From Radicibacter daui (GTDB taxonomy: Bacteria; Pseudomonadota; Alphaproteobacteria; Radicibacterales; Radicibacteraceae): a DNA stretch of 64,000 nt. The position numbers and the translations under genes were made by a program. The notes below the pieces were generated by a model. That model did not search any database, was not told the DNA's origin, and saw nothing but the letters and a program-made list of their open reading frames with translations. The stretch covers positions 2,314,501 to 2,378,500 of the forward strand of contig CP131056.1 in assembly GCA_030657355.1 (NCBI GenBank), given 5' to 3'. The stretch's first letter is position 1. Each line of letters begins with the position of its first letter. Of the stretch, positions 2,285-11,436 are shown piece by piece.

Positions 2285-4093
<1,809 letters not shown>

Positions 4094-4173
4094 GACTGGC
4101 AATTCCGGCTTTGAAGATGAAGGTCGCCGTTGCCAGGGCTGTGAGAACCCGGCAACGGCGAAAATTCCGGCGC

Positions 4174-5118
4174 TTATTCGAAAACGGAGCGCGGGAAATA
4201 GAAGGAGACCACCCAGTTCGGCATGTCGACGATCTCGGAAATCCTGAGATCACCGCACACCGAGCAGAGCATGTAGGCCTCGACGGCAGACATGCCGTGC
4301 GTGGCGGTCAGCAGATCCACCATGCCGGAGACCGCCATGCGGGCCCCTTCCATGAGGTCGGGGCCGATGCCGGTCGTCACCTCATAACCCTTGGTGTCGA
4401 GGTGACGGGTTACCGGGCCGGGCGTGGTGAAGCGCGGCATCCTGAGATTGGCGCCCTTCACCAGATCGAGGCTGGCCACGACATTCATCGGGCTTTCAAT
4501 CGCGGTGCCGCACACCTCGCCATCCCCTTGCGCGGCGTGCGTATCCCCCACGGAGAACAGGGCCCCCGCCACCTCTACCGGCAGGTAAAGGGTGGTGCCG
4601 GCAGCAAGGTCGCGGATATCGAGATTGCCGCCCACCCGGCGCGGCGGCACCACGCTGTGGTGACCGGGCTCGGCCGGGGCTACGCCGATGGTGCCGGCAA
4701 AGGGCTTGAGCGGCACGCGGCCGTTCTTGCCAAAAGCCGCAGGCGCCAGGCTCTGCTTGTCATAGGCCCAGATGTTGAGCGCGTTTTCCTTGAACTGGTC
4801 CGCCAGCAGGCCGAAGCCCGGAATGTTGGCGGTCCAGCCGAAACCGGAGGGCTTGAACTCGTGGATGGTGACCTTGAGCGCGTCGCCGGGCTCGGCCCCT
4901 TCCACGAAGATCGGCCCCGTCACCGGGTTGATCTTGCCGAAATCGAGTGCGCCGACATCGCCAACCTGGCTCTCCGGCGTCAACTGGCCGCCGGAGCTGT
5001 CGAGGCACTCGAATTCGATGGTGCTGCCGGGCGCGACCGTCATCGCGGGCGGGATCGAATGATCCCACCCGAAATGATGATGGCGTCCGTGGATGGTGTA
5101 ATTGCAGTTATTGCACAT
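4174..5118 (-). CDS. Formamidase/acetamidase (FmdA/AmdA family)
   Basis: A 314-residue hydrolase of the acetamidase/formamidase family, which releases ammonia from short aliphatic amides. Family hallmarks are the early AMTVAPGSTIEFECLD block, FVEGAEPGDALKVTI, the conserved GDTHAAQGDGEVCGTAIE segment (about residues 190-207) and the late SAVEAYMLCSVCGDLRISEIVD. No signal peptide, so cytoplasmic. Its ATG overlaps the end of the substrate-binding-protein gene by 11 bases, so the two are translationally linked, and the dual ATPase gene follows. This context says that the imported solute, or a product of it, carries a hydrolysable amide. The exact substrate cannot be read from sequence. Confidence 0.93.
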   Translation of the reverse strand: MCNNCNYTIHGRHHHFGWDHSIPPAMTVAPGSTIEFECLDSSGGQLTPESQVGDVGALDFGKINPVTGPIFVEGAEPGDALKVTIHEFKPSGFGWTANIPGFGLLADQFKENALNIWAYDKQSLAPAAFGKNGRVPLKPFAGTIGVAPAEPGHHSVVPPRRVGGNLDIRDLAAGTTLYLPVEVAGALFSVGDTHAAQGDGEVCGTAIESPMNVVASLDLVKGANLRMPRFTTPGPVTRHLDTKGYEVTTGIGPDLMEGARMAVSGMVDLLTATHGMSAVEAYMLCSVCGDLRISEIVDMPNWVVSFYFPRSVFE

Positions 5119-6751
5119 CTTTGGCGTACACGTAGTCGTAGTTCACCGGCACATGCACCGGATCGACAAACAGCGCATCGTCACCGCCGAGGCGGGCCGA
5201 ACGCATGGTGAAACGCTCTTCATTGAAGATCGGCGCCCACGGCGCATCGTCCATGATGCGGGTGAAGATGGAGCCCCAGAGCTTCTCGCGCTCTTCCTTT
5301 TGCGACGGCTCGACCATGCTGTCGGCCTTGGTCGCCTCGGCATCAAGCGCCTCATTGCAGTACCAGGACCAGTTCCAGCCGCCCTGGGTGGCGCCGGCGC
5401 AGCCGAGGATGGGGCCGTAGAAGTTGGAGGGATCGGGGAAGTCGGCGATCCAGGCCATGCCGCCCGACCAGATCATCGGGGCCTGATCCGGTTCGCCGCC
5501 GGCCGCGATCACGTTGGCCTGGGCCAGCGCCTTGATCTCGGCCTTGATACCGATGCCGGAGAGATCCTGCGCAATCGCCTGGGCGATGCGCGGGTTGGGG
5601 TCGGTATTGTAGACGTAAAGCTCGGTCGGGAAGCCGTCGGGGAAACCGGCATCGGCCAGCAGCTTCTTGGCGGCTGCCGGATCGTACGGATAACCCTTGT
5701 AGGCCTTGTCATAGCCCGGCATCGAGGGCGGCAGCGGCTGGTTGGCCGGTACGGCGCGCCCGTTGATGATCTTGACGATGCGGTCCTTGTTGATGGCCAT
5801 GTTGACGGCCTGACGGACCTTCACATTGTCGAACGGCTTCATCTTGACGTTCATCGTCACATAACCGGTCTGGAGCTGGCCGCCCTGGATGATCAGATCC
5901 TTGTAGTTCGGATCGTTCTTCACTTCGAGGAACTTGGCCGGCGGAATGCCGTCGCCCGGAATGTCGATCTCGCCCTTCTGCAGGCGCAGGAGCGCCACGA
6001 CCGGCTCCTGGCCGATCTCGAAGGTGATCTTGTCGAGCTTGGGAACGCCGCCCTTCCAGTAATCCTTGTTACGCTCGAGCACGATGTGCTGGCCGAGCGT
6101 CCAGTCCGCCATCTTGTAGGCGCCGCTGCCGACCGGATGCTTGCCGAAATCGGCACCGTACTTCTCCACCTCTTCCTTCGGCACGACCGAGGAGAAGTTG
6201 ATGGCCATCACATGCAGGAAGGTGGCGTCGGGATGGGAAAGCTCGATCTTCAGCGTGTAGGGATCGACAACCGTCACACCCGTCAGGCTCTTGGCCTTGC
6301 CGGCGGACACATCGTCATAACCGACGATGGAGGCAAAGAAACCGGCGCCCGGCGACTGCGTCTCCGGATTGGTCACGCGATCGAAGGAATATTTGAAGTC
6401 GTCCGCGGTCACTTCGCGGCCGTTATGGAACTTCACGCCCTTGCGCAGCTTGAAGGTGTAGGTCTTGCCGTCCGGCGAGATTTCATAGCTCTCGGCAAGG
6501 TCGGTGGTCAGGGTGCTGGTGCCGGGCTCATAGTCCATGAGGCCGTCGAAGATCGACTTGATCATCGACCAGTTCTGCCAGTCGTAACCGATGGCCGGAT
6601 CGAGCGTGGAGACGTCATCCTTGTAGGTGACGATCATCTCGCCGCCCTGCTTGACGCCGGCTTCGTACTTGTCGTCATAAGCCGCAGCGGGGCCGGCGGC
6701 CATCAGGCCGAGAGTGCCCGCAAGAGCGGTCGAAAGTAGCAGTTTCTTCAT
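5108..6751 (-). CDS. Peptide-type ABC transporter periplasmic substrate-binding protein (family 5)
   Basis: A 547-residue solute-binding protein of the DppA/OppA family (SBP_bac_5). A Sec signal peptide (KKLLLSTALAGTLGLMAAG, cleavage near AAA-YDD at residue 24) precedes the mature domain. Family blocks include VSTLDPAIGYDWQNWSMIKS, the GKTYTFKLRKGVKFHNGREV signature region at about 95-115, and HPVGSGAYKMADW. It captures solute in the periplasm for DppB/DppC. The cluster is headed by an amide-sensing AmiC-like protein and contains a formamidase, so the ligand may be an amide-bearing compound rather than a peptide. A 104-base gap with a small hairpin separates it from the upstream permease gene. 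Confidence 0.94.
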   Translation of the reverse strand: MKKLLLSTALAGTLGLMAAGPAAAYDDKYEAGVKQGGEMIVTYKDDVSTLDPAIGYDWQNWSMIKSIFDGLMDYEPGTSTLTTDLAESYEISPDGKTYTFKLRKGVKFHNGREVTADDFKYSFDRVTNPETQSPGAGFFASIVGYDDVSAGKAKSLTGVTVVDPYTLKIELSHPDATFLHVMAINFSSVVPKEEVEKYGADFGKHPVGSGAYKMADWTLGQHIVLERNKDYWKGGVPKLDKITFEIGQEPVVALLRLQKGEIDIPGDGIPPAKFLEVKNDPNYKDLIIQGGQLQTGYVTMNVKMKPFDNVKVRQAVNMAINKDRIVKIINGRAVPANQPLPPSMPGYDKAYKGYPYDPAAAKKLLADAGFPDGFPTELYVYNTDPNPRIAQAIAQDLSGIGIKAEIKALAQANVIAAGGEPDQAPMIWSGGMAWIADFPDPSNFYGPILGCAGATQGGWNWSWYCNEALDAEATKADSMVEPSQKEEREKLWGSIFTRIMDDAPWAPIFNEERFTMRSARLGGDDALFVDPVHVPVNYDYVYAKDVQ

Positions 6752-6855: not shown

Positions 6856-7776
6856 TCACCTCAGCTTGATGCGGGGATCGATGAGCGGGGCGACGAGGTC
6901 GGCAATCAGGTTGCCGAGTACGATCGCGCAGGCTGAAATCAGCGTGACGCCCATGATGATCGGAATATCGATGCGCTGGATGGCCTGCCAGGCGAGCTGG
7001 CCGATGCCGGGCCAGCCATAGACGCTCTCCACCACCACGATGCCGGACATGAAGATGCCGATGTCGATGCCGATCATGGCGATGATGGGCAGGACGGCAT
7101 TGGGCAGCGCGTGGCCGAGGATGACCTGCCAGCGGGCAAGGCCCTTGGCGCGGGCGGTGCGGATATAGTCCTGCCGCAGCACATCCAGCATGGCCGAGCG
7201 CATCATGCGGGCATACCAGCCGGCGCCCAGCAGGCCGAGCGTGAGCGATGGCAGGACCAGATGGCGGAAGGTGCCGTACCCGCCGATGGGAAACCAGCCG
7301 AGCAGCACGGCAAAGACATAGAGCAGCAGGATGCCGATCACGAACTGCGGCGTGGAGACGCCGACAAAGGATAGCACCATAAGCCCTTGATCAAGCTTGC
7401 TTCCCCGCTGCACCGCGGCAACCATTCCCATGGTGAGGCCGATGACGAGTTCGCTGACGATGGCGCCGGCCATCAAGAGCAGTGTTGCCGGCAGGCGCGA
7501 GGCGATGAGCTCCGCCACTTCGGTTTTCTGCAGATAGGAACGGCCGAAATCGCCGTGCAGCAGGCCGGTTGCATAGCGCCAGTACTGGACGAGGAACGGC
7601 TGATCGAGCCCGAGCTGGGCGCGGATGTTGGCAACCGTCTCCGGCGTGGCACTGCGCCCGGCAATCTGGCGCGCCGGGTCGGCCGGCAGGATATAGAGCA
7701 GGATGAAGGTAACGAGGCTGATGCCGATGAGGATGAGCAGCGTCTGGCCCAGGCGGCGCAAGAGATAGGCGGCCAT
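6856..7776 (-). CDS. Peptide-type ABC transporter permease, DppB-like
   Basis: A 306-residue inner-membrane permease. The N-terminal helix AYLLRRLGQTLLILIGISLV and the ILPADPARQIAG loop are typical of DppB/OppB. Six membrane segments are visible, and the cytoplasmic EAA loop is around residues 190-215 (YIRTARAKGLARWQVILGHALPNA as a region). The C-terminal block ESVYGWPGIGQL matches the family. The gene begins two bases after the stop of the DppC-like gene and is followed, after a hairpin, by the binding-protein gene. It forms the transmembrane channel with DppC. Confidence 0.94.
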   Translation of the reverse strand: MAAYLLRRLGQTLLILIGISLVTFILLYILPADPARQIAGRSATPETVANIRAQLGLDQPFLVQYWRYATGLLHGDFGRSYLQKTEVAELIASRLPATLLLMAGAIVSELVIGLTMGMVAAVQRGSKLDQGLMVLSFVGVSTPQFVIGILLLYVFAVLLGWFPIGGYGTFRHLVLPSLTLGLLGAGWYARMMRSAMLDVLRQDYIRTARAKGLARWQVILGHALPNAVLPIIAMIGIDIGIFMSGIVVVESVYGWPGIGQLAWQAIQRIDIPIIMGVTLISACAIVLGNLIADLVAPLIDPRIKLR

Positions 7777-7778
7777 GA

Positions 7779-8687
7779 TCAGTGCCTTCCCTTCTGGGTC
7801 GGGTCGAGAATGTCACGCAGGGCGTCACCCACGAGATTGAAGGCCAGCGCGAGCAGGATGATCGCCACGCCGGGGATGAAGACGAGCCAGGGTGCCGAGG
7901 TGAAGTAGGTCTGGTTTTCGTAGATGATGTTGCCCCAGGACGGGGTTGGCGGCTGGACGCCGATGCCAAGGAAGCTGAGTGTGGCTTCCAGCAGCACCGT
8001 GGTGGCGATGCCGAGCGTTGCCCACACCACGATGGTGGAGACGAGGTGTGGCAGCACATGGCGGAAGAGGATGCGCGCCTTGCCGGCACCAAGCGCCCAC
8101 TCCGCCTCGACGAACTCGCGTTCCGCCAGCGAGCGGGTTTCCGTGTAGATGACGCGTGCCACCTGCACCCAGTTGACCATGGCGATGACGAGGGCAACGA
8201 TCCACAGGCTGGGATGGAAGAGCGCGGCCAGCACGATGGCGAGCAGCAGTGCGGGAAAGGCCATCATCAGGTCGGTAAAGCGCATCAGTACCGAACCGAC
8301 GATGCCCTGGAAGAACCCGGCGGTAATGCCCACCAGAGCACCGATCACCACAGCGATACCGTTGGCGACCACCCCGATGATCAGCGACGTACGGGCGCCA
8401 TAGACAAGGCGGGAAAAGAGGTCGCGGCCGAGCAGATCGGTGCCGAACCAGAACTGGGCGTTCGGCGGCAACGGCGCCCCCTCCAGCGTCAGCCCGTCAA
8501 AAAGCTGTTCGGTCGGTTCGTGCGGCACGATGAAGGGGGCGAAAATAGCCGCCAGCACCACCAGCACGATGATGGCAAAGCCGAACATCGCCAGCTTGCG
8601 GCGCATGAGTTCCCTGAGAACGCGCCCGGCCCGCGGGGCGGCCGCTACCGGGGCGGCTCCGCTTTCAGGCGCGGCTGCGAGAGTCAT
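7779..8687 (-). CDS. Peptide-type ABC transporter permease, DppC-like
   Basis: A 302-residue permease. After a short cytoplasmic tail comes the first helix (MFGFAIIVLVVLAAIFAPFI) and the periplasmic block FWFGTDLLGRDLFSRLVYGAR, the classic DppC/OppC signature. The EAA loop lies in the ARVIYTETRSLAEREFVEAE region, and SFLGIGVQPPTPSWG is the conserved C-terminal motif. ATG 8687 is chosen because AGGAACG precedes it and the mature DppC N-terminus fits; longer in-frame starts reach into the upstream regulator gene. It overlaps the end of that amiR-like gene by 23 bases, tying transporter expression to the regulator. Confidence 0.93.
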   Translation of the reverse strand: MTLAAAPESGAAPVAAAPRAGRVLRELMRRKLAMFGFAIIVLVVLAAIFAPFIVPHEPTEQLFDGLTLEGAPLPPNAQFWFGTDLLGRDLFSRLVYGARTSLIIGVVANGIAVVIGALVGITAGFFQGIVGSVLMRFTDLMMAFPALLLAIVLAALFHPSLWIVALVIAMVNWVQVARVIYTETRSLAEREFVEAEWALGAGKARILFRHVLPHLVSTIVVWATLGIATTVLLEATLSFLGIGVQPPTPSWGNIIYENQTYFTSAPWLVFIPGVAIILLALAFNLVGDALRDILDPTQKGRH

Positions 8688-9285
8688 CTTTATCGTTCCT
8701 GTCTGTCTTGCTGGCGATGAGGGCATCCGCCGCGTCCTCGACGCTCTGGCGGGCCGACATGGCAATTTCACGCAGCCGCTGCAGGGCGGTTGCCTCGTCA
8801 ATCTTTTCGCTGGTCATCAGCAGCACGAGCGCTCGCGCCACGGCGGAGCGGCGGGCAAGGCGCGAGCGTAGTTCCGCCACCTCCCCCTCCAGCGCGCGTT
8901 GAGCAGCGAAGGTGCGAACGGCGATCATCAGGGCGCTGAAGGCGCCGCCGGAGCCGAGCGGCTTGCGTAGATGGGCAGAGGCCCCCTGCCGCATCGCCCA
9001 CTCCACCCGTCCCGGCGTTTCCGAACCCAGCAGGGCGATGAGCGGTATCGGCGCGGCGCCGGGCTCCCACGGGAATTGCCCGTCATATCCCATGTCCGCA
9101 TCGAAGAAGATGACGCTGGCAGCGGCATCTTCCGGCGTCAGCTCCGGCCAGACCTGACGGCCGGAAATGCCCAGCCGCTCCAGCTGGCGCAGCAACGCAT
9201 CCGCATCCGCATGCGGCCGGTGCAGCACGATGGCCGTCCAGCTGCGGAAATTGGGGGTGCGGAAATGCGGGGCGTTGCCGGGCAT
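8665..9285 (-). CDS. AmiR-type ANTAR-domain transcription antiterminator
   Basis: A 206-residue protein with an N-terminal pseudo-receiver domain (about residues 15-125), a coiled-coil linker (about 128-150) and a C-terminal ANTAR RNA-binding domain (about 140-200; conserved LLMTSEKIDEATALQRLREI and SARQSVEDAADALI). In the Pseudomonas amide system AmiR binds the leader RNA of the operon and prevents termination. AmiC holds AmiR inactive until an amide binds. The start ATG shares its A with the stop TGA of the amiC-like gene, as expected for partners made in fixed ratio. The receiver part lacks an obvious phosphorylation setting, again as in AmiR, so control is probably by ligand and not by a kinase. 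Confidence 0.88.
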   Translation of the reverse strand: MPGNAPHFRTPNFRSWTAIVLHRPHADADALLRQLERLGISGRQVWPELTPEDAAASVIFFDADMGYDGQFPWEPGAAPIPLIALLGSETPGRVEWAMRQGASAHLRKPLGSGGAFSALMIAVRTFAAQRALEGEVAELRSRLARRSAVARALVLLMTSEKIDEATALQRLREIAMSARQSVEDAADALIASKTDRNDKDDSRSRA

Positions 9286-10448
9286 CAGCTGATGACCCTC
9301 AGGTTCGGCCGCATGACACGGGCACTGAGCTCCGCCGGGTTGAAATCAACCAGATAGGGGTCGGGCGAAACTGCGCTCGGCGCGCTCTCAACAATCTCGA
9401 ACCGGCCGCCGGCGGCAATGCGCCCCAGATGCGGGGTAAGCGCGGTGTGGTTCGTACGGCGGTCGACCTGCACCTCGCCAAGCGGTCCTGAAAAGCTGCG
9501 GGAGGTAACGAAGGCCTGCACGGCTTCCGGCTCGTCACTGCCGGCCTCGCGGATCGCTTCGGCCAGCAGGCGCACGGAAAGCCAGGAGCTGGCAAAGAAG
9601 GAAGAGACGCGGCGTGCCTGGCCAAGGCGCTGGCGCGTACGGGCCAGGAACGCGCGATTGGCAGCGGTGTCGAGGCTTTCGAAATAGATGGCGGTCGACA
9701 GGTGGCCGATGCCGGCCTCCCCGATCATGTCCAGTTCTGCCTCGGTCACATTGCAGCTGACCACCGGCCGGCGCGCCGGCAGGAAATCCGGATCATCCAG
9801 ACCAAGCTGGTGATAGGCGGCCAGAAAGGCATAGCTCGACGGGCCGATGAGGTTGTTCAGCACGAAATCCGGCTTCTTCTGGCGGATTTCTTCAATGATG
9901 CGTTCAACATCGACCGAGCCGATGGGCAGGTAACGATCCCCCAGCACGCTGCCATTGCAATCGGCCAGAAGTTCGCGGGCGATACGGTTCGTCTCCCAGC
10001 CCCAGATGTAGTTGGAGCCGACGAGATAGGCGTTGACGCCATAACGCGGCAGCACATGGGCGAACAGCGGCACGATGTGCTGGTTGGGACAGGCGCCGGT
10101 ATAGATCACATGATCGTTGGCCTCGAACCCTTCATAGGGGCACGGATACCACAGCAGGCTGCCCCGTTTCTCGATGACGGGGATAACCTCCTTGCGGCTC
10201 CAGGAGGTGATGCAGCCAACAAGATGGCGCAGATCACGGCTGCGCAGCAGCGTGTCGGCGATCGGGGCATAACGTTCGATGGAGCCTTCCGGGTCTCCCA
10301 CCTCGGCGCGCAGGCTGAAGGGAAAGCTGTCATCCTCGTTGATCTCGGCAAGCGCCATCAGCGCGCCGTCAAGCGCATCCGACCCCAGCGCCGCATAGGG
10401 GCCGGAGGTGGAATAGAGGATCCCGACTGGATAGGTGCGCGTGGTCAC
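9285..10448 (-). CDS. AmiC-like amide-binding sensor (LivJ-type periplasmic-binding fold, cytoplasmic)
   Basis: A 387-residue protein of the AmiC/UrtA branch of type I periplasmic-binding proteins. It starts directly with YPVGILYSTSGPYAALG and has no signal peptide, so it acts in the cytoplasm as a sensor, unlike UrtA, which is exported. Typical family segments are GCITSWSRKEVIPVIEK, LLWYPCPYEGFE and VGSNYIWGWETNRIARE. GTG 10448 is chosen because GGGAG lies upstream and the fold begins there; an in-frame start at 10502 would fall in the leader terminator. Known AmiC binds acetamide-type amides and releases AmiR. Here it leads an operon for a peptide-type importer and a formamidase. A terminator with an alternative stem lies 58 bases upstream. 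Confidence 0.9.
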   Translation of the reverse strand: MTTRTYPVGILYSTSGPYAALGSDALDGALMALAEINEDDSFPFSLRAEVGDPEGSIERYAPIADTLLRSRDLRHLVGCITSWSRKEVIPVIEKRGSLLWYPCPYEGFEANDHVIYTGACPNQHIVPLFAHVLPRYGVNAYLVGSNYIWGWETNRIARELLADCNGSVLGDRYLPIGSVDVERIIEEIRQKKPDFVLNNLIGPSSYAFLAAYHQLGLDDPDFLPARRPVVSCNVTEAELDMIGEAGIGHLSTAIYFESLDTAANRAFLARTRQRLGQARRVSSFFASSWLSVRLLAEAIREAGSDEPEAVQAFVTSRSFSGPLGEVQVDRRTNHTALTPHLGRIAAGGRFEIVESAPSAVSPDPYLVDFNPAELSARVMRPNLRVIS

Positions 10449-10505: not shown

Positions 10506-10560
10506 AAAAAACCCCGCCTCCGTTTCGAGTTCTGCCGGTAAGGCGGTTCTCCAGAAACGG
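10506..10560 (-). promoter_or_regulatory. Leader attenuator: terminator with a competing antiterminator stem
   Basis: Read on the minus strand, CCGCCT (10546-10541) pairs with AGGCGG (10519-10514) and is followed by TTTTTT (10511-10506), an intrinsic terminator. A second pair, CCGTTTC (10560-10554) with GAAACGG (10526-10520), has its 3' arm directly beside the terminator's 3' arm and encloses its 5' arm, so the two stems cannot nest and should exclude each other. Such an arrangement suits control by the ANTAR protein encoded downstream. I could not find the paired A1-G4 hexaloop hairpins of classical ANTAR targets. The terminator could also simply end transcripts of the hydrolase gene at 10729. 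Confidence 0.65.
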
Positions 10561-10611
10561 AACGACGGGGCGCAATTGCCGCCCGGCGATCAAGGCCGGT
10601 ATTTGACCGTA

Positions 10612-10639
10612 ACGTTAAGGGCCATGACGGTGCTGTCAA
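10612..10639 (-). promoter_or_regulatory. Candidate sigma70 promoter of the ami/dpp operon
   Basis: On the minus strand, TTGACA (10639-10634) is followed after 16 bases by TAACGT (10617-10612). Transcription would start near 10605, giving a leader of about 157 bases before the GTG of the AmiC-like gene, with the attenuator inside it. The -35 is perfect, the -10 weak. Confidence 0.55.
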
Positions 10640-10728
10640 GGCCGAATTTGCTCAAGTGATAGGCTCTTCGATCTCGCGACCTTATTTGCCTAAATTTTAA
10701 GCAGCAGTTACAAGGCAGCCATGAATGG

Positions 10729-11436
10729 TTACAGCTGCATGAGGCCCAGTAATTCCTCATGCGACATCACATGGCAATAGATCATGTTGATGATCTCCAG
10801 TTCGCGTACATGAATTTCGTCAGAAGCCGCCGCACAGCAATCATCGAGAACCACCACCTCGAAGCTCTCATCGGCAAGGCTGCGCACGGTGGAGGAGATG
10901 CACTGGTCGGTAAAAATGCCGGCCACCACCACGGTGCGGATGCCCATGTTGGCGAGCATGAGGCGCAGATTGGTGCCGGTCAGCGCGCTGTCGGTGGTTT
11001 TGGTGACGACGATCTCGTCCCCCTGCGGGGCAAGGGCGGGCACGATCTGCGACGGGTCTTCCAGATGCGGCAGCAGAAGGTAATTGAAGCCCGGCTTTTT
11101 CTGGCTGAGCGAGCGGTCCCGCCCGTCCCTGGTCACACAGGCGATGCGGGCGAACATCCGCTCAATGCCGGCAGTGCGGAATTTTGCCAGCACGGTTGCG
11201 ATGTTGGGGATGACGGCGGCGTGCATGCGCTCATGAAACGGTGTCCAGGCATCGAAATGCGCCCTCTCCGCCTCTGTCGCCAGTGACCCCCGCTCGGGGC
11301 GGGCGAGATAGGTGTTCTGCACATCGATGACCAGCAGGGCCGTGGTCTTCGGGTCGAGCGGCGGATCGTCCGGCTCCGGCGCGGTGGCGTAATAGAGCGA
11401 GCGATAGGCCTGCTTCCAGGGGATGGTGCGTTTCAT
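10729..11436 (-). CDS. Isochorismatase-family cysteine hydrolase
   Basis: A 235-residue alpha/beta hydrolase of the isochorismatase-like family, which includes nicotinamidase, N-carbamoylsarcosine amidase, biuret hydrolase and ureidoacrylate amidase. The catalytic triad is visible as Asp38 (LLVIDVQNTY), Lys146 (EIVVTKTTDSALT) and Cys179 (GIFTDQCISST), so an amidase or ureidase reaction is likely. ATG 11436 is chosen for a GGAAC nine bases upstream; a second ATG at 11445 is too close to it. The gene points the same way as the ami/dpp operon and ends about 90 bases before that operon's candidate promoter, so a shared pathway of amide nitrogen use is plausible. The substrate is unknown. Confidence 0.9.
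   Translation of the reverse strand: MKRTIPWKQAYRSLYYATAPEPDDPPLDPKTTALLVIDVQNTYLARPERGSLATEAERAHFDAWTPFHERMHAAVIPNIATVLAKFRTAGIERMFARIACVTRDGRDRSLSQKKPGFNYLLLPHLEDPSQIVPALAPQGDEIVVTKTTDSALTGTNLRLMLANMGIRTVVVAGIFTDQCISSTVRSLADESFEVVVLDDCCAAASDEIHVRELEIINMIYCHVMSHEELLGLMQL

Follow-up and report, generated by a model that had tools for sequence, protein, structure and literature searches.

Introduction

By definition, ANTAR-target RNAs have a pair of hexaloop stem-loops with A in the first loop position (A1) and G in the fourth (G4) (PMC3369931, PMC8164766), and two hairpins whose loops have A1 and G4 are reported from the amiE leader of the AmiC/AmiR system (PMC3369931). In the EutV/eut, NasR and NasT/nas systems, an upstream hairpin (P1) is followed by a second (P2), which the protein stabilizes and which overlaps the terminator 5′ arm (PMC3369931, PMC8934654). 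In RNA-bound EutV, G4 stacks on Tyr164 and is held by Arg142, Lys149, and Glu160 (PMC8934654). The EutV structure paper reduced the minimal ANTAR site to a single hexaloop and raised the question of whether sites of this kind function naturally; both hairpins and G4 were held to be necessary for antitermination (PMC8934654).

The window analyzed here, a stretch of 64,000 nucleotides from Radicibacter daui, contains an operon with amiC- and amiR-like genes behind a leader RNA. Leaders of this operon family were not described in the open-access literature that we searched. Our analysis indicates that this leader is very probably an attenuation leader under antitermination control, in which the ANTAR domain of AmiR holds P2, the terminator is blocked, and transcription reads through into the operon.

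Results

An amide operon headed by its own regulators

The genes behind the leader all lie on the minus strand. The first is amiC-like (9285–10448), encodes an amide-receptor homologue with Pfam Peripla_BP_5/6 matches, and has the ribosome-binding site AAAGGGAG (10465–10458) ahead of a GTG start (10448–10446). It is followed by an amiR-like gene (8665–9285) and, as assigned by Pfam, by two Opp/Dpp-type permeases (7779–8690 and 6856–7776), a family 5 solute-binding protein (5108–6751), an FmdA/AmdA acetamidase/formamidase (4174–5118), and a fused double ABC ATPase (2285–4102). Together these genes form an operon for the uptake and hydrolysis of amides, with its own regulators at its head. Across 80 homologous alphaproteobacterial loci, contig ends excepted, the order amiC-amiR-permease-permease-binding protein is the same, with amiR as the second gene of the operon. 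The window AmiR scores above the curated Pfam cutoffs for both of its domains (AmiR_N, 43.8 against 27 bits; ANTAR, 36.8 against 27.3 bits) and matches AmiR 1QO0_D in phmmer (E = 1.5e-11). Its AlphaFold2 model (pLDDT 89.6) has AmiR (1QO0) and RNA-bound EutV (6WW6) as top Foldseek matches. Directly upstream of the leader, also on the minus strand, lies an isochorismatase-family gene (10729–11436) with weak similarity to the biuret amidohydrolase BiuH and to RutB.

Leaders were compared across 85 loci: 78 complete homologous loci, the window, one relative from a class search, and five plasmid loci. Three loci of other operon types (L003–L005) and two truncated loci were left out of this set, and loop and base conservation was counted over the 50 distinct leaders among the 85.

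A conserved promoter and a terminator before amiC

The preliminary description had proposed a TTGACA-16-TAACGT promoter, and this element is present on the minus strand, with the −35 at 10634–10639 and the −10 at 10612–10617. Its spacing is conserved: TTGAC-N16..18-(T)AnnnT precedes the hairpins in most homologous leaders, and in most two-hairpin leaders the −10 ends about 30 nt before P2. Transcription would be expected to start near 10604, giving a leader of about 10604–10506 on the minus strand. The conserved promoter thus puts the start upstream of the terminator; a start downstream of it had been listed in the preliminary description as speaking against the proposed leader.

The minimum-energy fold of the window leader (−42.5 kcal/mol) is a terminator hairpin with the 5′ arm GCCCCGTC (10564–10571) and the 3′ arm GGCGGGGT (10518–10511), the last base of which is the first of a six-T tail (10511–10506). 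The stem and six-T run noted earlier are present, on the minus strand. Across 27 leaders, the base stem is 99.4% paired and shows covariation. The upper hairpin varies among lineages. The leader segment also folds better than shuffled sequences (z −2.5, computed on the opposite strand, which has the same inverted repeats). A simple sigma-70 and terminator scan reported neither element, owing to a poor −10 and a long terminator loop; the comparative data support both promoter and terminator. In most leaders, the U tract is followed by a short spacer and then by a second T run and a G (TTTTTTGTTTTGG), for example at 10511–10499 in the window.

In the preliminary description, a CCGTTTC/GAAACGG stem was named as the structure that competes with the terminator. 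This stem (10560–10554 with 10526–10520) is nested in the minimum-energy fold as the upper terminator hairpin. It crosses solely a weaker CCGCC/GGCGG helix, and the fold with that helix enforced reaches −33.2 kcal/mol. The interleaved arms reported earlier can indeed pair and cross, but they do so only if the wrong 5′ arm is taken for the terminator. Since the upper terminator differs among lineages, the named pair is not the conserved switch. The broader idea of mutually exclusive structures ahead of the AmiC/ANTAR pair held up, with a terminator and a competing hairpin both present; the competitor is a different hairpin, P2.

P2 overlaps the terminator in every leader

P2, GGC[AATTGC]GCC (10569–10580, minus strand; loops are bracketed here and below), was not noticed in the preliminary description. 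The bases of its 3′ arm also begin the terminator 5′ arm. A hairpin at this edge of the terminator was found in 85/85 leaders, nearly all of them GGC-N6-GCC with the GCC starting the terminator 5′ arm; the alternative stem is thus kept in every leader examined, where its loss from homologues had been put forward as evidence against the switch. P2 was located by pattern in most leaders, and it lands at the terminator in each one examined. In 84 of the 85, the terminator triplet has a 3-bp partner with a loop of exactly six nucleotides; of the other terminators of these loci, 32 were examined, and none has such a hexaloop hairpin on its 5′ arm.

No other element of the leader is as conserved as P2. 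Among the 50 distinct leaders, its 5′ GGC carries 1.9–2.0 bits per base, and the sequence further 5′ carries little information, close to random. The 5′ GGC is not part of the terminator, so its conservation is not accounted for by termination. The leader is under selection. In three Thalassospira leaders both P2 arms are swapped (GCC-N6-GGC) and the loop is still six nucleotides long. This is the one clear compensatory change in P2; support elsewhere comes mostly from the invariance and position of a 3-bp stem. P1 and P2 together are 96.7% paired, with a covariation score of 0.175 compared with 0.034 for shuffled alignments (reached in 0/500 shuffles), a signal that comes mostly through P1. 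No covariation was measurable in the set of single-hairpin leaders, in which the stem is invariant.

The predicted fold was the terminator in 76/85 leaders and P2 in 0/85, with P2 costing a median of 6.3 kcal/mol. According to folding of the window leader, formation of P2 removes three pairs from the base of the terminator and detaches this base from the U tract.

P1 is present in some leaders and absent from others

Upstream of P2 by about 2 nt, the window leader has P1, CCGGC[CTTGATC]GCCGG (10583–10599, minus strand). P1 presence was scored by labels: 55/85 leaders have it, with covarying pairs, compared with about 13 expected from shuffled sequence. The window P1 has a heptaloop; in other leaders the P1 loop is mostly 5–9 nt long. 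No P1 was recognized in the other leaders (about 30), which have P2 alone, and most of these have a promoter too near P2 to accommodate it: the −10 typically ends 16–26 nt before P2, most commonly 16–19, so that roughly 10 nt of transcript would precede P2. Leaders of this kind include those of Nitratireductor, Brucella/Ochrobactrum, Shinella, Devosia, and Maritalea. Mapped on the AmiC protein tree, P1 presence requires four changes, three of them forced by well-supported branches, with loss and gain indistinguishable and with the long branches of Klebsiella, Sulfitobacter, and Neorhizobium placed less certainly. P1 has therefore changed state repeatedly.

The P2 loop and the AmiR contact residues depart from the A1-G4 pattern

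Position 1 of the P2 loop is A in 46/50 distinct leaders; the window P1 loop starts with C. G4 is present in P2 of 8/50 distinct leaders, which corresponds to a single change on the tree, and the window has T at this position. Overall, most P2 loops have C or T at position 4, and most have a purine at position 5. The 18 distinct P1 heptaloops, by contrast, all have G at position 4, which may mean that G4 is retained in the hairpin that would recruit AmiR and relaxed in the antiterminator. No hexaloop hairpin of at least three pairs with both A1 and G4 occurs in the window intergenic region, and when the sequence upstream of amiC was searched for pairs of A1-G4 hexaloops, the window gave none and other loci gave scattered single hits. 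The earlier remark that the familiar A1-G4 pair is not visible was correct; a conserved A1 hexaloop, P2, is present nonetheless.

AmiR and NasT are the two ANTAR proteins of the window genome. Relative to the EutV contacts, the window AmiR keeps Arg142, Glu160, Arg168, and Met172 and has Leu in place of Lys149 and Tyr164, substitutions that could change or weaken binding of the loop. None of the AmiR sequences aligned from this operon family has Lys149, and many single-hairpin species, together with Roseibium, have an AmiR that also lacks Glu160. Recognition unlike the Eut/Nas type had been suggested beforehand, and a P2 mostly without G4 facing an AmiR without Lys149 fits that suggestion. Two AmiR relatives that keep Lys149 (L005 and L121) have leaders with A1-G4 hairpins, GAGC[AGGGCA]GCTC and GAGC[AGGGTA]GCTC. 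G4 was found in 0/33 leaders whose AmiR has no acidic residue at the Glu160 position. Coevolution of loop position 4 with Glu160 was considered and was not significant, as the tree offers 3–4 independent pairs and the correlation is inseparable from ancestry. Loss of Lys149 as the sole cause of G4 loss was also rejected: another AmiR clade without Lys149 keeps G4, with T1.

One copy of the leader in the genome

With a covariance model, one real copy of the leader was found in its own genome, at 55.2 bits compared with 26.3 bits for the next match; the remainder was background, and no wider regulon was seen. The E-values of the model are unreliable in GC-rich genomes, among which 208/289 genomes “match” at low bit scores. 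Searches of Rfam at gathering and relaxed thresholds returned no relevant family. The nas (nasT) locus of the same genome has, ahead of the nitrate genes (L114:6560–6660), a P1, GGCCC[GATGGC]GGGCC, and a P2, CAGC[AACGCT]GCTG, next to a terminator. This leader is likely to be the target of NasT, which keeps Lys149, Glu160, and Tyr164. Its detection served as a positive control, from which it follows that the loop scan recognizes the standard A1-G4 form.

Discussion

The leader most likely is an ANTAR antitermination leader and works like one, although it misses G4 in P2 and a hexaloop in P1. Because the predicted folds favor the terminator and never P2, termination would be the default, and read-through would need something that holds P2. 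The obvious candidate is AmiR, the operon-encoded ANTAR protein; gene linkage, architecture, and protein family all point to such binding. According to the folding predictions, RNA starting near 10604 would by default fold into the terminator GCCCCGTC...GGCGGGGTTTTTT, and transcription would stop before amiC. When amide is present, AmiC would release AmiR, by homology to Pseudomonas AmiC/AmiR, and the ANTAR domain of the freed AmiR would then hold P2. P2 held in this way would capture the first three bases of the lower terminator stem, the terminator could not close against the U tract, and polymerase would continue into the operon, from amiC and amiR to the genes of the amide ABC transporter and the acetamidase/formamidase. 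In leaders that have P1, its probable role is to recruit AmiR before P2 has been transcribed.

Other explanations for the terminator were weighed against antitermination by AmiR. It follows the isochorismatase-like gene on that gene's own strand, and terminators between genes are common, so it could be a constitutive intrinsic terminator of that gene with no switch. We consider this improbable: the gene adjoins the operon in the window genome only, yet the terminator and P2 occur in 85 leaders, a conserved promoter separates gene from terminator, and the 5′-arm hexaloop hairpin is missing from the 32 other terminators of these loci. Even less credence attaches to a switch in which CCGTTTC/GAAACGG is the antiterminator and CCGCC/GGCGG the terminator stem. 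Pairing can be drawn for either helix, and the two do cross, but the nested terminator is stronger than the crossing one by about 9 kcal/mol, and the bases of CCGTTTC/GAAACGG are not conserved.

A regulated terminator before a transport operon would in principle also be compatible with a ligand-binding riboswitch or with leader-peptide attenuation. The space before the terminator, about 35–40 nt (about 20 in single-hairpin leaders), is too short for an aptamer or a leader peptide, no Rfam family fits, and the conserved part is an ANTAR-shaped hairpin beside an ANTAR gene, which together make this reading highly unlikely. It is similarly hard to credit that NasT and not AmiR antiterminates at P2. 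NasT is a second ANTAR protein in the genome and retains the EutV residues that AmiR has partly lost, but its own leader carries a canonical A1-G4 P2, and it is amiR that is linked to the present leader in homologous loci.

As in AmiC/AmiR-amiE, there is an AmiC-type receptor, an AmiR_N-ANTAR protein, an amide-catabolism operon, and a leader terminator. Unlike in amiE, the regulators are the first genes of an operon that also encodes an Opp-type ABC transporter and an amidase of the FmdA type, the stem of P2 has 3 bp and its loop usually lacks G4, P1 is non-hexaloop or absent, and AmiR has no Lys149. The upstream P1 and a P2 overlapping the terminator 5′ arm are shared with the Eut and Nas leaders, where P2 is stabilized by the protein, as is proposed here (PMC3369931, PMC8934654). 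Those leaders have A1-N-N-G4 hexaloops in both hairpins, whereas here A1 is kept, P2 position 4 is mostly a pyrimidine, and many leaders have P2 only. Divergent actinobacterial ANTAR RNAs likewise have A and G only partly at loop positions 1 and 4; they keep dual stem-loops and few lie at terminators (PMC8164766), whereas here all lie on the terminator and a single hairpin recurs. Set against the definition of ANTAR targets, P2 overlaps and excludes an intrinsic terminator, and both tandem stem-loops are present in the window and in 55/85 leaders, with P2 alone in about 30. The loops are not both hexanucleotides (P2 a hexaloop, the window P1 a heptaloop), and P2 in the window has no G at position 4. 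We thus regard the leader as a recognizable but unusual variant, a non-canonical and sometimes single-hairpin ANTAR antiterminator of an amide operon.

Whether the AmiR family has a shifted RNA code seems to us evenly balanced. Such a code would consist of a single terminator-overlapping hexaloop, A1-N-N-Y-R-N without G4, with the matching lysine lost and P1 dispensable in several branches, and one ANTAR hairpin would then suffice in nature. The leaders form a natural test, in which the same operon and regulator family occurs with and without P1 and with and without G4, alongside changed G4-contact residues. Amide control of the uptake operon is predicted for rhizobia, Brucella-group bacteria, Roseibium, Thalassospira, and Klebsiella plasmids.

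A plasmid acetamidase operon of Klebsiella, amiC-amiR-ABC transporter, has been described with a gene set of this kind (PMC13209695). We found the same gene order on Klebsiella plasmids, as in Klebsiella pneumoniae plasmid CP094369.1 (L118:8001–15833), where the operon runs amiC-amiR-permease-permease-binding protein-FmdA-ATPase; AmiC matches occur in 726 Klebsiella plasmid records. The Klebsiella leader has a single hairpin, AGGT[AATGAA]GCCT, which is canonical A1-G4, unlike P2 of the window.

Hexaloop hairpins were also seen downstream of amiR in other loci. In another AmiR clade, in which Met172 is replaced by Thr (L153, L157–L163, and L165), P2 hexaloops of the form T-N-N-G-N-A on GGC/GCC stems lie at a terminator. 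Several loci of this clade have one or two A1-loop hairpins before P2, such as GAGC[AGGTTT]GCTC and CGGC[AGGGCT]GCCG, and three-hairpin arrays are possible there. In L166 and L167, two consecutive terminators downstream of amiR each have a hexaloop hairpin, GGT[AACGGA]ACC (canonical) followed by GGC[AATACG]GCC, which suggests tandem antitermination sites.
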